A stretch of 35,147 nucleotides of DNA from Myxococcales bacterium SG8_38. GTDB lineage: Bacteria > Myxococcota_A > Polyangia > Polyangiales > Houyiibacteriaceae. Below are positions 22,414 to 28,424 of the stretch, in pieces. Under the pieces are notes generated by a model that worked only from the letters and a program-made list of their open reading frames with translations, was not told the DNA's origin and searched no databases. The number at the start of each line of letters is the position of its first letter. Within the stretch, counting starts at the first letter, position 1. The position numbers and the translations under genes were made by a program. The DNA lies in NCBI GenBank assembly GCA_001303415.1, contig LJTN01000028.1, forward strand, positions 1-35,147. The letters run 5' to 3'.

Positions 22414-23486
22414 GCGCCGGGCTCTCCCGCGAGCCGTTGAGCGGCGCGGATTGGTTCGCGGTGGAGTTCGATCCCGCCACCCGAGAGGTGGTGATGCTTG
22501 ACCAGAGGCTGCTTCCGGGCGAGGTCCGGTATCACCGCTACCGCACGGCCGACGGGGTCGCCGATGCGATTCGCGACATGGTGGTGCGCGGAGCGCCGGC
22601 GATCGGGATCGCTGCTGCGTACGCGCTGGCGTTGGTCGCCCGCGACGTGACGAGCGACGCCAAGATGTTCCTGGTCGCCAACGGCACTGCAGGACGTGTC
22701 CTCAACGCGACGCGACCGACCGCGGTCAATCTAGGGTGGGCCATTGCTCGCATGTCCCGCAAGGCAGGGCAGGTTGCCGAGCGCTCGCAAGAGGAACGGT
22801 TTCAGTCGATGCTCGAAGAGGCGGAGTCGATTCATCGGCAGGACGTGGAGTCCTGCAGGCGGATTGGCGAGCTCGGGGCTGCCGACGTTCCGGATGGCGC
22901 GGTGATCCTCACCCACTGCAACGCAGGCGCGCTGGCCACGGGCGGCTATGGAACCGCGCTCGGCGTGATCCGTGCGGCGCATGCGCAGGGCAAGCAGGTG
23001 CGGGTCTTGGCCGGCGAGACCCGGCCCTACCTGCAGGGGGCGCGGCTGACCGCTTGGGAGCTCCATCAGGATGGCATTCCCGTGGAGGTGATCACCGACA
23101 ACATGGCGGGGTACTTCTTTCAGAAAGGCGAAATCCGGTTCGTGGTCGTCGGAAGCGACCGGATTGCGGCCAATGCAGATGTCGCCAACAAGATCGGGAC
23201 GTACACCCTGGCAGTGCTCGCCAACGAGCATCGGGTGCCGTTTACCGTGGCTGCGCCCTGGAGCACCGTCGATCTCCGAACACCCTCCGGCGCGGACATC
23301 CCCATCGAGGAGCGTTCTCCTCTCGAAGTCGCCCGCATCGGCAGCACGACACTGGTAGCCGATGGGATTTCGTGTCGGCATCCTGCATTCGACGTGACGC
23401 CGGCCCGGTTGATCGATGCGATTTACACCGAGCGCGGCGTGGTGAAGCCGAAGATCGGAGAGCGGCCCGACGTGCTGATCGGCTGA
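22410..23486 (+). CDS. mtnA: S-methyl-5-thioribose-1-phosphate isomerase
   Basis: MtnA converts methylthioribose-1-phosphate to methylthioribulose-1-phosphate in methionine salvage. It has 358 residues from ATG 22410. Signature parts are [16 protein letters not shown], the catalytic Cys170 ([11 protein letters not shown]) and Asp250 ([10 protein letters not shown]), and [16 protein letters not shown] near the end. The start is fixed by the four-base overlap with gatB, which implies translational coupling. Other salvage genes are not adjacent, though a homocysteine methyltransferase is in the window. Its 3' end faces lysA with seven bases between. Confidence 0.94.
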
Positions 23487-23493
23487 GCGGGGC

Positions 23494-24789
23494 TCACTCG
23501 AGGATCTCGCCCTGCCACAATGCCTCCGGGCCGCTTCGCCGCCGCACGAGACGAGAACGGGCGCCGTCCACCAGCACCTCGGGTGGCAGCGGCCGGGCAT
23601 TGTACATGCTCTGCATCTCCCGCCCGTACGCCCCGGCGCCGCGGATCACGAGCAGGTCCCCAGGCTCGACCCCGGGCAGCGGGCGGTCTCTGGCCACGAA
23701 ATCCCCCGACTCGCAGACCGGTCCCACGACATCCACGGGCGTGAGCTCGGCATCGGGTGCGGGCTCCACCAGTGGCATGATCGCATGGTATGCGCCGTAG
23801 AGCGCGGGGCGAATCAGCTCGGTCATGGCCGCGTCGACGATGACGAATCGCCGCGCGCCCTGCGTCTTGGTGTAGAGAACGCGCGTCAGCAGGGCGCCCG
23901 CATCTCCGACCAGAGCCCGCCCCGGTTCGGTGATGATCTCGATCCCCGGGCGCAACACGTCGGCCGCTTCGAGACCCTCGCGAATGGCGTCTCCAAATGC
24001 GCTTGCCGCGGGGTAGGGGTCGACCTCTTGTCCGTAGTGCATAGGCCAGCCGCCGCCGACGTCGATGGCCCGCAAACGCGCCCCCTCCTCGATGCAGTGA
24101 ATGGCGAAACGGCCGAGAATTTCGATTGCCTCGCGAAGCGGCTGCGGGGAGGAAAGCTGAGAGCCGATGTGACAGGCCACCGATTCGAGCAGAAGATGCT
24201 CGCTTCGGAGGATACGTGGAACGAGCTCCTCGGCCACGGGGATGGATAGGCCGAACTTCGACTCGCGGAGCCCCGTCGCAATGTAGGGGTGCGTCTTGGG
24301 GTCGACGTCGGGGTTGACGCGCAGACCGATCGACATGGGCCGGCCGAGCTCCCGGGCGACGCTCTCGACCACGTCGAGCTCCTGCGTGTTCTCGACGTGC
24401 AGGGCGCGAATCCCTGCCTGTGCTGCGGCTCGAATTTCTTCTCGGCGCTTTCCGACGCCGCTATAGATGATGCGCTCGGGGGGGAATCCGGCCTTGAGCG
24501 CGCGTTGCATCTCTCCGACCGAGACGATGTCCGCTCCGCAACCTTGCGATGCGAGCCGGGCGAGCACCGACAAGTTCCCGTTTGCCTTCACCGCGTACGC
24601 GATGAGGTGCGGGGCAAAGGACAGCGCTTCGTCGATCGATCGGTAGGCGTGGTCGATCGCGGCGCCAGAATAAACGAAGGCAGGCGTATCCACCTCGGCC
24701 GCGATCGACGCGAGCGGCACTTGCTCGCAAGCAAGCTCGCCGTCTCGATAGGAAAACCATGGCGACTCGGAAATGTGGGCGTTGGACAT
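23494..24789 (-). CDS. lysA: Diaminopimelate decarboxylase
   Basis: LysA decarboxylates meso-diaminopimelate to lysine using pyridoxal phosphate. It has 431 residues. PLP attaches at Lys68 (AYAVKANGN). Further motifs are HIGSQ, the glycine-rich DVGGGWP, and the second-subunit catalytic Cys in PVCESGDF. It is the last gene of a minus-strand unit, nine bases after argH. There is no sign of fusion or truncation. Confidence 0.94.
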   Translation of the reverse strand: MSNAHISESPWFSYRDGELACEQVPLASIAAEVDTPAFVYSGAAIDHAYRSIDEALSFAPHLIAYAVKANGNLSVLARLASQGCGADIVSVGEMQRALKAGFPPERIIYSGVGKRREEIRAAAQAGIRALHVENTQELDVVESVARELGRPMSIGLRVNPDVDPKTHPYIATGLRESKFGLSIPVAEELVPRILRSEHLLLESVACHIGSQLSSPQPLREAIEILGRFAIHCIEEGARLRAIDVGGGWPMHYGQEVDPYPAASAFGDAIREGLEAADVLRPGIEIITEPGRALVGDAGALLTRVLYTKTQGARRFVIVDAAMTELIRPALYGAYHAIMPLVEPAPDAELTPVDVVGPVCESGDFVARDRPLPGVEPGDLLVIRGAGAYGREMQSMYNARPLPPEVLVDGARSRLVRRRSGPEALWQGEILE

Positions 24790-24798
24790 GGCGGCGTC

Positions 24799-26190
24799 TC
24801 ATGCTCCACGACGGGCCTGCAGTCGACCCCGCAGCTCGGCAAGGGCCTCCTGCACACGCGCCCGCGCCGGGCCTCCGAGCACGCTGCGGCGTTCGACGGC
24901 CGTTTCCATGTCGAGCGCGCGAAACACGCTTTCGTCGAACGCGTGGTGCGCCGCCTGATACACCTCGAGCGGCAGCTCCGAGAGCGTCATGCCGCGTTGC
25001 ACGGCCTGCCGAACGAGCTTCCCGGCCACGTGGTGCGCTTCCCGGAAGGGGACTCCCCGCGATGCGAGCCAATCGGCTACTTCCGTCGCGTCGAGGAAGC
25101 CCTCCTTCAACGCCGCCGCCATGCGGTCCCGATCGAAGGTCGCCGACGAGATCGCTCCGCTCAGGACGGCGAGGCAGTCGTGCACCGTGTCGAACGCTTC
25201 GAACACGGGCGCCTTGTCCTCTTGCAAGTCGCGATTGTACGCCAGTGGGAGGCCCTTGAGCATGACCAGCAGGTTGACCAAGGAGCCCACGACCCGGCCG
25301 GTCTTGCCGCGCACGAGCTCTGGCATATCGGGGTTCTTCTTTTGCGGCATGATCGACGAGCCCGTGGTGAAGGCATCGCTCATTTGCACGAAGCCGAATT
25401 CCTGACTCGACCAGAGCACGAGCTCCTCCGCGATTCGCGACAGATGGACGGCGCAAATCGCCAGCGCGCTCACCGCTTCGAGCAAGAAGTCGCGACTGCT
25501 CACGGCATCGAGCGAGTTTCGCATGGGGCGATCGAAGCCGAGGGCGCGGGCCGTGGCGTCCCTGTCGAGCGGAAACGTCGTTCCGGCAAGCGCTGCGCTG
25601 CCGAGAGGAGACTCGTTCATGCGCGCGGCCGCATCGACGAGCCTTCCCCGATCCCGCTCGAGCATCTCGGCCCAGGCCAGCAAATGGTGGGCGAGGCGTA
25701 CGGGCTGGGCGCGCTGCAGGTGCGTGTAGCCGGGCATCAGAAAATCCACGTGGGCCTCGGCCTTGTCGACGAGGACCTCGAGAAGGGCGTCGATGTCTGC
25801 AGTGGTCGACTGGCAAGCCTGGCGCGTCCAAAGCCGCATGTCCGTGGCCACTTGGTCGTTCCGGCTCCGACCGGTATGCAGGCGCCCGCCTGCCTCGCCG
25901 ATGGCCTCGATCAGCGCGGATTCGATGTTCATGTGAACGTCTTCCCTCTCGGGATCCCACGCCAGCTCCCCGCCCTCGATCGACGCACGGATGCGCTCGA
26001 GACCGGCGACGACTTGCTCCACGTCGTCTTCGGACAAGATGTTGCGTTCACCGAGCATGCGCACGTGCGCGATCGAGCCCTCGATGTCCTGCGGCCACAG
26101 GCGGCCGTCGACATCCACGCTCGCGCTGAATCGCGCTGCGATGGCGTCCAGCTCCTCTTGGAAGCGTCCGCCCCATGGCTTGTCAGTCAT
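24799..26190 (-). CDS. argH: Argininosuccinate lyase
   Basis: ArgH splits argininosuccinate into arginine and fumarate, the last step of arginine synthesis. It has 463 residues. Visible are RLHTGRSRNDQ (103-112), the catalytic His157 in GYTHLQRAQP, and the superfamily signature GSSIMPQKKNP (277-287) with catalytic Ser279. It lies 13 bases downstream of the pseudo-P-type ATPase and nine upstream of lysA, so all three are probably one transcript. argG is not in the window. Confidence 0.95.
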   Translation of the reverse strand: MTDKPWGGRFQEELDAIAARFSASVDVDGRLWPQDIEGSIAHVRMLGERNILSEDDVEQVVAGLERIRASIEGGELAWDPEREDVHMNIESALIEAIGEAGGRLHTGRSRNDQVATDMRLWTRQACQSTTADIDALLEVLVDKAEAHVDFLMPGYTHLQRAQPVRLAHHLLAWAEMLERDRGRLVDAAARMNESPLGSAALAGTTFPLDRDATARALGFDRPMRNSLDAVSSRDFLLEAVSALAICAVHLSRIAEELVLWSSQEFGFVQMSDAFTTGSSIMPQKKNPDMPELVRGKTGRVVGSLVNLLVMLKGLPLAYNRDLQEDKAPVFEAFDTVHDCLAVLSGAISSATFDRDRMAAALKEGFLDATEVADWLASRGVPFREAHHVAGKLVRQAVQRGMTLSELPLEVYQAAHHAFDESVFRALDMETAVERRSVLGGPARARVQEALAELRGRLQARRGA

Positions 26191-26203: not shown

Positions 26204-28357
26204 CTATTTCTGCATCGGCACTCGAAGGTCTACACGGCGAAGCAGGCGCGAGCCAGCCCGAAGCGCCCAAGCCTCCGTTCCAAGCGCGATCAGCGCCGCG
26301 GCCACCGGCGTCATCCACCCGAGAATTGCGCCCGCGGCGACCAGGAGCCCGACTGCCACGCACACACCGGTGCTTCGCCAAACAGAGCGTCGAACAGCAC
26401 GCGCGATCCACAGCGAGTCGGCTGCATCCCGCACGTCTCGGCTCGCGATCACGACGCCGCGCTCTTCGAGCGCCGCACCCGTGACGCGAAGCGAGATCGG
26501 CACGTCCGATGCTGCCAGCACGGCATCGTCCTCGCCGCCCCGACCGATGGCCGCAGTGATTCCGCCGGTCTCCCGAAGGGCCCGGACCTCGGCTACCCGC
26601 TCATCGGGCAGGAGCGGAGCCTTGACCTGCGAGGTGCCGAGATGGGAGGCGATGCGCTCCACGGTCCGCCGGTCATCACCAGACAAGATGACCACCTCGC
26701 AAGGGAGGTCGGCGATTCGTTGGACGGCATCGCGGGCGCCGACGTGGGTAGGATCCAAGATCGCGAGCAGCAACTCCACGCGTCCATCGACCGCGACGAA
26801 AATCGGCGTGAGGCCTTCGTTCTCCATGTGGACGGCGTCGCTATCGGCGGCAGCGACGCTGATGCCTTCGTCGAGCAAGAGTTGGCGCCGTCCGACGACG
26901 ACTGGGATGCCGTTCGTGGTGACCGCCGCGACTCCGAGCCCGGCCAGGGCGCGCTCCTTGCGCACGGCCGCAGCAGGGTAGCCGTGCTCTTCCGCGTAGC
27001 GTTGAATCGCCCGCGCGACGGGGTGGTCCTCGGCTGCCTTTTCGGCAGCCGCCGCTAGGCCCACGACCCATTCCAAATCGCCGGTTCCGAGGCGATACAC
27101 CTGGTGAACGATGGGCTCTCCCGCGGTGAGGGCGCCCCGCAGCAAGATGGCCGCGGTGCTCGTCCGGCCGGCCTCGCGCAGGGCGCGCAGGCTTCCGAAG
27201 AAGATCCCGCGGCGCGCCGACGCCAACGCTCCAGCCTCGGGCGGTCCGTCCAACGAAGCGACGAATGCGAGGACCGGCAGCCCGAGCAGCAACGTTCCCG
27301 CAGCATCGGGGCCCGCCCATGCGAGTACGGCGAGAGCCGCCAGGGCGGGCACCATCCAGCTCCAATGTGCAAGGGCAAAACGCAGCCTGGGCGCAGCGGG
27401 GACCTGCTGATTGCGCCTGCCAAGCTCAATCCCGCGCACCATCGCTCGCTCCTGGCCGGTCCGCCGGACTCGGATGGTCAGCGCGCCTTCGAGGACGCGG
27501 GTGCCGGCGAGAATGAAGTCGCCTCGGGCGTACGGCTTCGAATGCAGCGCCTTCGGGTAGCGAAGCGCGAGCCCGGCCCCCTCTTCGACCACGCCGTCCG
27601 CGGGCACGGCCTCTCCTTCCAGGACCACTGCGACGTCGCCTTGGTGGAGCTGCGTCGCGGGCACCTCCTCGTACGCCGAGGTTCCCCGCGAGGGCACGCG
27701 AGCTTTGTGCGGCAGCGTGTCACGAAGCTCGGTTGCAACGACTCGAACCGGCACGAGCATCGACGCATGAACCCAGTTGCGGCTCGAGATGATGATCGCT
27801 GCAACCGAGGCGCCGAGCAGCGCCCACTGTCGTGCGACGGGATCACCCACGGAGGCAGCTGCCACGGCCGCGAGCACGAGCCCAGCGGGTCCGACCGCCC
27901 GAAAGGACTCCGGCGCCCGAACGGTGCGCAGTGGGATGCGCGCGTTGAGCGCAGCGGACACGGTGATGAGCACGGCCGTGAGCCACCCGAGCATTTGGTT
28001 GGTGCTCAGGCCGACGATGACGAGCGAGACCAGGCTGAGACCGACAGCCAAGGCCGGATCGTGCGGGTGCGCCCCTGCGGCTTGGCCATCGGCGGCAGAC
28101 GCCTGGTCTCGGACCACCGTAGCCTCGCGCACCAAATCGGGAATCGACGGTCTCTCCACCCGAGGGCTCTTCGAAGCGGGACGGGACGGCGCATCGAAAT
28201 CACGCTCGCCCCGGAGGAACCGGGCGCGGCATTGATCGCTGCAAAGAAAACGGACGCCGTCCTCGAGCCAACACACCCGCGGTGCGCGAAGGGCGTCCAC
28301 CTCCCGCCCGCAGACGGGGCACGGACGAAACTCACCCGTAGGTCGCGCTGGAAGCAT
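26204..28357 (-). CDS. Catalytically degenerate P1B-type ATPase homologue with N-terminal YHS/TRASH-like finger
   Basis: The 717-residue product starts at ATG 28357, eight bases after a perfect AGGAGG. Residues 13-43 hold a CPVC...CSDQC finger of YHS/TRASH type. Hydrophobic segments at about 105-136, 155-190, 330-370 and 662-695 give the eight-helix P1B layout, with an A-domain-like block (235-300) and N/P domains. Family landmarks kept are [25 protein letters not shown], the N-domain HP (EDHPVAR) and [13 protein letters not shown]. Lost are the CPC ion site (LPV), the phosphorylated Asp in DKTGT (LLRGA, residues 405-409), the TGE loop, and GDGxND (GRGGED). It cannot work by the normal phosphoenzyme cycle. 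It could be a metal sensor, a subunit or a chaperone. Codon use resembles its neighbours, with no internal stop. It is first in a unit with argH and lysA. Confidence 0.85.
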
Positions 28358-28365
28358 CACGCAAA

Positions 28366-28371
28366 CCTCCT
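28366..28371 (-). promoter_or_regulatory. Consensus ribosome binding site of the pseudo-ATPase gene
   Basis: Minus strand AGGAGG, eight bases before ATG 28357 and five before GTG 28360. The spacing favours the ATG. Confidence 0.8.
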
Positions 28372-28424
28372 ACGAGGAATCGACATCGGGTCAAGGACGC
28401 GGTAAGGGTCCGGCCGGAGGTCAG

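Follow-up and report, generated by a model that had tools for sequence, protein, structure and literature searches.

P-type ATPases are defined by a phosphorylated aspartate, and pseudokinases and pseudophosphatases are well known. One such protein, the tyrosine pseudokinase EcpK, has been reported in Myxococcus xanthus (PMC12004946). In a generated P-type transporter, a D-to-A change at the position of the phosphorylated Asp abolished ATPase activity (PMC12395301), and the actuator domain has been described as the built-in phosphatase of these pumps (PMC10654040). Human TMEM94 (ERMA) was reported in one study to bind nucleotide without ATPase activity (PMC12134183); a 2026 paper disputes this inactivity and argues that the protein is a Mg2+ ATPase (PMC13322241). 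Metal-binding fingers are described from other settings. Ribosomal protein L24e is a TRASH domain in which Cd2+ is held by four Cys residues, and the copper-activated adenylyl cyclase of M. phlei contains a YHS domain with D178, C181, C204 and C208 as ligands (PMC4626032). Among the papers listed by a literature search in a collection that leaves out most subscription journals, none dealt with a family of pseudo-P1B-ATPases as judged by title and start of abstract, and such a family was not found in the accessible part of a 2023 review of open questions on P-type ATPases (PMC10654040). The 35,147-nucleotide stretch of DNA analyzed here (the window) encodes a protein that is P1B by descent and is not a P1B pump.

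Layout of the locus and the altered motifs

The features of the locus are as follows, with residues numbered from the ATG.

26204–28357, minus strand: pseudo-P1B-ATPase gene, 717 aa counted from the ATG at 28357
28358–28424: intergenic region common to the pseudo-ATPase gene and divergent fumC, with strong conservation across 15 members of the genus
28366–28371, minus strand: Shine-Dalgarno sequence AGGAGG, 8 nt ahead of the ATG
28229–28321, minus strand: N-terminal TRASH/YHS-like finger, C-x2-C-x22-C-x3-C (Cys13, Cys16, Cys39 and Cys43)
27392–27757 (borders approximate), minus strand: actuator-like domain, TGE loop replaced (YPKA)
27272–27280, minus strand: LPV in M4 at the position of the CPC metal site, residues 360–362
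27125–27145, minus strand: LLRGALT at the DKTGTLT phosphorylation motif, residues 405–411
26777–27085 (borders approximate), minus strand: N domain, with HP, GxG and VGR retained
26438–26776 (borders approximate), minus strand: P domain, second half, under the strongest constraint of any region (dN/dS 0.05)
26528–26545, minus strand: GRGGED at the GDGxND position, residues 605–610
24799–26190, minus strand: argH, the next gene on the same strand (NCBIfam TIGR00838, 1.4e-188)
23494–24789, minus strand: lysA, after argH (NCBIfam TIGR01048, 1.6e-136)

The longest frame (26204–28360, minus strand) is opened by a GTG at 28360 in frame with the ATG; alignment of the genus orthologues favours the ATG at 28357 as the start. 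The AGGAG core of the Shine-Dalgarno sequence does not vary among the genus members (15 of 15). argH starts 13 nt past the stop codon of the pseudo-ATPase gene and is followed by lysA, with fumC divergent. GC content by codon position is 0.77/0.54/0.77 in the pseudo-ATPase gene versus 0.72/0.46/0.82 in argH. The region from 28358 to 28424 was inspected by eye for an ArgR or metal box, and none is claimed. An inverted repeat in this region, TCCT-N3-AGGA, overlaps the Shine-Dalgarno sequence and could be an operator. At the other end of the unit, a 354-aa frame (22736–23800, plus strand) converges on lysA. It has no Pfam or NCBIfam match, and its match recurs close to lysA in many loci of the order at 43–82% identity, marking a conserved uncharacterised family.

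Pfam E1-E2_ATPase (1.1e-9) and Hydrolase (5.3e-12) both match the window protein above cut-off, and the general P-type model of NCBIfam accepts it (67.1 bits versus a cut-off of 62.3); TIGR01525 matches at 2.4e-57, yet below its cut-off. The AlphaFold2 model has a P1B-like architecture (pLDDT 85.4, pTM 0.78). Ranked by E-value, the first fold match in the PDB was 4bbj (TM 0.41/0.44); the second and third were 7r0g, which had the highest TM among the matches listed (0.69/0.75). The nearest solved chain by sequence was CopA 3j09 (1.3e-80). A preceding sequence-only reading had described a frame with P1B architecture from end to end, and the full-length homology, Pfam matches and model agree with it. 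Its motif readings were also reproduced (LLRGALT, LPV, GRGGED, TGE absent, the finger kept and HP kept as DHP at residues 444–446), as were a strong Shine-Dalgarno sequence, AGGAGG 8 nt 5' of the ATG, and a unit in which argH, 13 nt after the stop, and then lysA follow on the same strand.

Residues were aligned for 83 loci with distinct protein sequences plus one further locus (L149), and compared with 22 canonical pumps. The phosphorylated Asp was present in 0 of 83 readable pseudo rows versus 22 of 22 canonical rows. Its position was occupied by Cys in 47 rows, Leu in 12, Ser in 11 and other residues in 13, the full set besides Cys being L, S, A, V, N, Q, F, M and P. At the third position of the motif, Arg (63 of 83) and His (12) stood in place of Thr, which was kept in 2, and the catalytic Lys was replaced by Arg in 75 and Gln in 6 of the 83 rows and kept in 2. 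The Asp of GDG was Arg (41) or His (26) in 67 of 82 rows, with at least one member (L024) keeping it. The second Asp of the GDGxND motif was kept in 79 of 82, and none of the pseudo rows had the motif intact. The Glu of TGE, found in all canonical rows, was Ala in 80% of pseudo rows. The CPC of M4 is LPV in the window protein and APLL-like in most of 25 aligned rows, in an alignment uncertain by one column. One member of family f5 (L037/L074) reads TPC at this place in M4, which may be left over from the metal site.

The nucleotide side of the protein differed. The N-domain residues E, H, P, G and G were found in 69, 59, 76, 82 and 81 of 83 pseudo rows, the E being present in 14 of 22 canonical rows and Gln in the remainder. 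Basic residues filled all three of three pocket positions in 62 of 82 pseudo rows, two in 14, one in 4 and none in 2, versus always one basic residue in canonical pumps. Thus, of the features of an active P1B pump, the N-domain nucleotide residues are present, and the Asp, TGE, GDGxND with the catalytic Lys, and a CPC-type M4 site are all missing; full-length homology and the P1B domain order place the protein in the P1B family by descent. From the residue counts we conclude that the pump chemistry is dead and that the finger and the nucleotide-site glycines are nearly fixed. The D-to-A control of the generated P-type transporter (PMC12395301) supports the view that ATP turnover stops when the Asp is lost.

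The sequence-only reading had also raised recurrence of the LLRGA and LPV replacements, which held in part: loss of the Asp is general (kept in 0 of 83), and the exact LLRGALT is confined to the genus, the position elsewhere being mostly Cys. A new role for this Cys as nucleophile is unlikely because the Asp position is variable. A frameshift or read error hiding DKTGT was ruled out, as re-reading revealed no frameshift that restores it and the orthologues are altered at the same positions.

In the finger, Cys13, Cys16 and Cys39 were present in 79 of 79 rows reaching this region and Cys43 in 77 of 79; five rows (L036, L075, L131, L136 and L149) lack the region because contig ends cut them. Comparison of the finger with two YHS domains by hhalign gave 89%. 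For a finger-only model (pLDDT 93.6), the nearest Foldseek match was ribosomal L24e, with a probability of 1.00 but an E-value of 0.045, and no match fell below 0.001. Among 25 members, Pfam returned weak DUF7576 matches in 12, weak TRASH matches in 3 and no YHS match at E ≤ 0.1. By sequence and model, the four ligands have the spacing and fold known from TRASH/YHS domains.

Distribution, descent and constraint

All 57 related genomes have some match to the window protein, canonical pumps included. Orthologues of 672–725 aa with 57–69% identity and no stops were found in 13 of the 18 other genomes of the genus. Of the remaining five, one has a copy cut by a contig end (L020), one a 31-residue piece only (G001), and three, 66–82% complete, no orthologue (G009, G010 and G014). 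One genus member (L053, from G016) lacks 46 residues in the area of the linker and the first pair of helices, with the frame intact. More distant relatives were mostly 31–44% identical to the window protein.

A profile (A1) built from 25 members was searched against 191 class genomes of at least 80% completeness, 79 of which belong to the same order (Polyangiales) by kinship rows. At E ≤ 1e-70, 68 of these 79 matched, and reading the best sequence identified a pseudo member in 66. In the other two (G023 and G048) the best sequence was canonical; G023 contains, in addition, a piece of 43% identity in a frame of 118 codons, so the pseudo gene may be partly present there. Eleven genomes of the order had no A1 match at this threshold. 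Outside the order, where more divergent members below the threshold could be missed, 34 genomes of the class matched, and the four that were read (G063, G093, G108 and G160) all had DKTGT. Among 235 genomes of the phylum, 8 outside the order matched at 1e-80, and 8 of 8 carry DKTGT. A scan of named genomes (at least 30 loci) included, among the matches listed, 7 from non-myxobacterial organisms, all with DKTGT. The NCBI label of some metagenome-assembled genomes differs (Myxococcaceae). Score alone was rejected as a test of family membership because the weakest true members (258–274 bits) overlap canonical pumps from outside (up to 284–288 bits); motifs and finger decide.

In a quick tree with 22 canonical pumps, a set confined to good matches from the phylum, the 84 members grouped as a single clade (SH-aLRT 100). 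Branches within the clade broadly track families: f5, f12 together with f7, and the rest. Pump chemistry was most likely lost once, before Polyangiales radiated, with vertical inheritance since. The actuator core, about 85 residues, has been deleted in frame in L041 and L042, from one genus of f1, and in L043 of f12, whereas L127, from the same small clade as L043, retains it. This amounts to losses in two separate lineages, on the evidence of a single assembly for L043 and two genomes on long branches for L041 and L042; the finger, P and N regions stay in each.

Estimates of dN/dS by the NG86 method were 0.13–0.21 in the four closest genus pairs. The median for the pseudo-ATPase was 0.16 (91 pairs, of which the distant ones may be saturated, dS having been inspected in the closest), compared with 0.09 for argH (78 pairs) and 0.06 for fumC (91 pairs). 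By region, in five close pairs, values were 0.08 and 0.05 in the P domain, 0.10 in the N domain, 0.13 in M3–M4, 0.15 in M5–M6, 0.18 in the A domain, 0.19 in the finger, 0.28 in MA–M2 and 0.33 in the linker. The dead P domain is therefore the most constrained part; by this measure the finger is not, despite its invariant Cys residues. Among the pseudo rows of the 191-genome scan, a TGA lies within the match in one (G044), near its C-terminal end, and the others have no stop. Two expectations of the sequence-only reading were borne out here, namely maintenance by selection, with dN/dS far below 1 (0.13–0.21 in the closest pairs), and homologues recoverable by profile, in which loss of the Asp is common across the order (66 of 79 genomes).

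Gene neighbourhood and other P-type ATPases

Arginine genes adjoin the pseudo gene in 63 of the 83 distinct loci. The neighbour is a downstream argH of the same strand in 31 and a divergent argH in 2; in the other 30, argD, argF or both are found upstream with the same orientation as the pseudo gene. Conservation of the context, which the sequence-only reading had proposed to check for argH, holds for arginine genes at large, argH itself accounting for the 31 downstream and 2 divergent cases. In four genomes the NCBIfam match that identifies argF exceeds its cut-off, and the name argD was given because a class-III aminotransferase is placed before argF. In 20 of the 83 loci there is no arginine neighbour, and in 8 of these 20 the contig ends less than 200 bases from the gene on one side. 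Gaps to neighbours were taken from tblastn match edges against the stop-to-stop pseudo frame and are approximate, some being negative.

Other neighbours recur as well. A Fur-family gene follows the pseudo-ATPase gene in 17 of 83 loci, all in f12 (L112–L120, L122–L125, L129, L135, L136 and L148; one example confirmed). Divergent fumC precedes it in 15 of 83, an L,D-transpeptidase gene precedes it in 8 and frr follows it in 4 (one example of each of the latter two confirmed). The argH gene lies elsewhere in four f12 genomes and argF elsewhere in four f1 genomes, and the pseudo gene itself lies away from arginine genes in f5, beside frr (L039, L134, L137 and L138), and in other contexts in f3 (L046/L151). 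On one reading, an ancestral argD–argF–pseudo–argH–lysA cluster was later split. Hitchhiking on arginine genes as the whole cause of retention is not favoured because some clades hold the gene elsewhere.

The genome from which the window derives (92% complete) has three E1-E2 hits: the window gene, L001, which is Ca-type P2 by best match although below its cut-off, and L002. The latter, a P1B ATPase, keeps DKTGT, CPC and GDGLND and has PF12156, and the sequence-only reading had proposed looking for just such a canonical pump elsewhere in the genome. Given its PF12156 domain, L002 is probably FixI/CcoI-like. The window protein gave no PF12156 match up to E 1 and does not belong to the FixI/CcoI family (FixI/CcoI/CtpA-type, Saier family 27). 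Canonical P1B ATPases with similar profile scores are present in five typed genomes (G000, G003, G012, G015 and G020), PF12156 being shown for the G000 copy only. Two of these genomes (G012 and G015, both rated 100% complete) have three E1-E2 hits each, comprising the pseudo gene, a P1B with scores like those of L002 and an untyped protein, and CopA/ZntA-type exporters appear to be missing from both; a partner of that type is therefore unneeded for retention of the gene. A canonical heavy-metal pump is present in genus members G002, G007, G016 and G018. Within the flanks examined, no second P-type ATPase frame (at least 200 aa, A1, E ≤ 1e-20) was found in the pseudo-gene loci.

Function and comparison with known systems

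The shared loss of the Asp, dN/dS far below 1, the lack of a frameshift and the arginine context in 63 of 83 loci together uphold the earlier picture of a selection-kept pseudo-ATPase with a finger. Because the pump parts are lost and the metal-binding finger is intact, sensing or organizing rather than pumping is the most likely role. We regard the chances as evenly balanced that the protein would be a membrane-bound regulator or scaffold, responsive to metal and perhaps to nucleotide, and not a transporter. By homology, the finger would bind a transition metal and the N/P headpiece may be a binding site for ATP or ADP at which no hydrolysis occurs, basic residues having taken the places of the phosphate and Mg2+ ligands; the resulting conformation might then be read by a putative partner. 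Of the roles offered earlier, that of metal sensor would fit best, given the TRASH/YHS-like finger. Several findings count against this regulator reading. The N-domain His is present in only 59 of 83 rows, and the GxG may be purely structural. The neighbours suggest arginine biosynthesis rather than metals, except for Fur in 17 of 83 loci; the finger matches the PDB with an E-value of 0.045 at best, and its Pfam DUF7576 and TRASH matches are weak. Ancestral features also persist in single members (TPC in L037, the GDG Asp in L024 and the Lys in two rows). A more elaborate proposal, tentative and somewhat unlikely as a whole, is that the P-type fold was turned once into order-wide non-pumping receptors that combine TRASH metal sensing, a Mg2+-independent basic pocket for ATP or ADP, and a headpiece output tied to arginine supply or Fur.

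The same neighbourhood could instead point to a membrane factor of arginine (or arginine and lysine) metabolism, in which the fold would serve to hold or tune enzymes of arginine synthesis, or deal with a metabolite, and the role of the finger would be structural. Arginine genes beside 63 of 83 loci in differing arrangements (31, 2 and 30) speak for it, but members of the order in f5 and f3 also keep the gene away from arginine genes and common descent could account for the linkage with no functional tie; we consider it unlikely. That the protein regulates, as a partner, a canonical P-type ATPase of its own membrane, such as a FixI/CcoI-like P1B, is a doubtful explanation with a lower chance still. 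The similar-scoring canonical P1B of the five typed genomes would suit it, as would the reported dimer of MgtA (PMC10925321), but no second P-type frame accompanies the pseudo gene within the flanks examined, and CopA/ZntA-type exporters appear to be missing from two genomes rated 100% complete that have it.

Transport might also persist without phosphorylation or by unusual chemistry, the protein acting as a channel or facilitator. Its membrane helices are kept and Cys is the commonest substitute for the Asp (47 of 83), but the position is variable, the Mg2+ and TGE residues have largely disappeared, two lineages have lost the actuator core and most of the 25 rows aligned in M4 no longer have its metal site, so that we judge this improbable. 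Decay of a pump would account for the lost motifs and for the TGA near the C-terminal end in G044. It has next to no probability and is already refuted: dN/dS (0.13–0.21 for the closest pairs, with its minimum in the P domain) and conservation contradict it, with one order-wide clade and no stop in the other pseudo rows of the 191-genome scan.

A large, old and selected bacterial family without the Asp provides a clean system in which to study the role of a scaffold unable to pump. It also calls for caution among annotators: because the general P-type model of NCBIfam accepts the sequence, the pseudo-ATPase is likely to be annotated as an active ATPase.

Among the described systems, TMEM94 resembles the window protein in having A/P/N-like domains and no TGES, but it is eukaryotic with ten helices, and the accessible part of its description mentions neither a P1B relation nor a finger (PMC12134183). 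The FixI/CcoI/CtpA-type ATPases (function from PMC3924187) share the P1B fold and have a copy in the same genome, and differ in that this copy, L002, retains DKTGT, CPC, GDGLND and PF12156. TRASH/YHS domains are matched by the L24e-like finger model and by the hhalign result of 89% to two YHS domains, and the ligand spacing of the M. phlei YHS cyclase (D178/C181/C204/C208) equals that of Cys13/16/39/43 in the window finger (PMC4626032); here, in contrast, the finger sits on a dead pump, has four Cys as in TRASH and carries a near-invariant VDPLRA loop. The closest relatives are the P1B copper ATPases of the CopA type (7r0g and 3j09), which supply the best sequence and fold matches and share the domain order MA–MB, M1–M6, A, P and N, with GxG and HP in the N domain. 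Unlike them, the window protein is without the phosphorylated Asp, TGE, CPC and the GDG Asp, and has basic pocket residues and an N-terminal TRASH-like finger.
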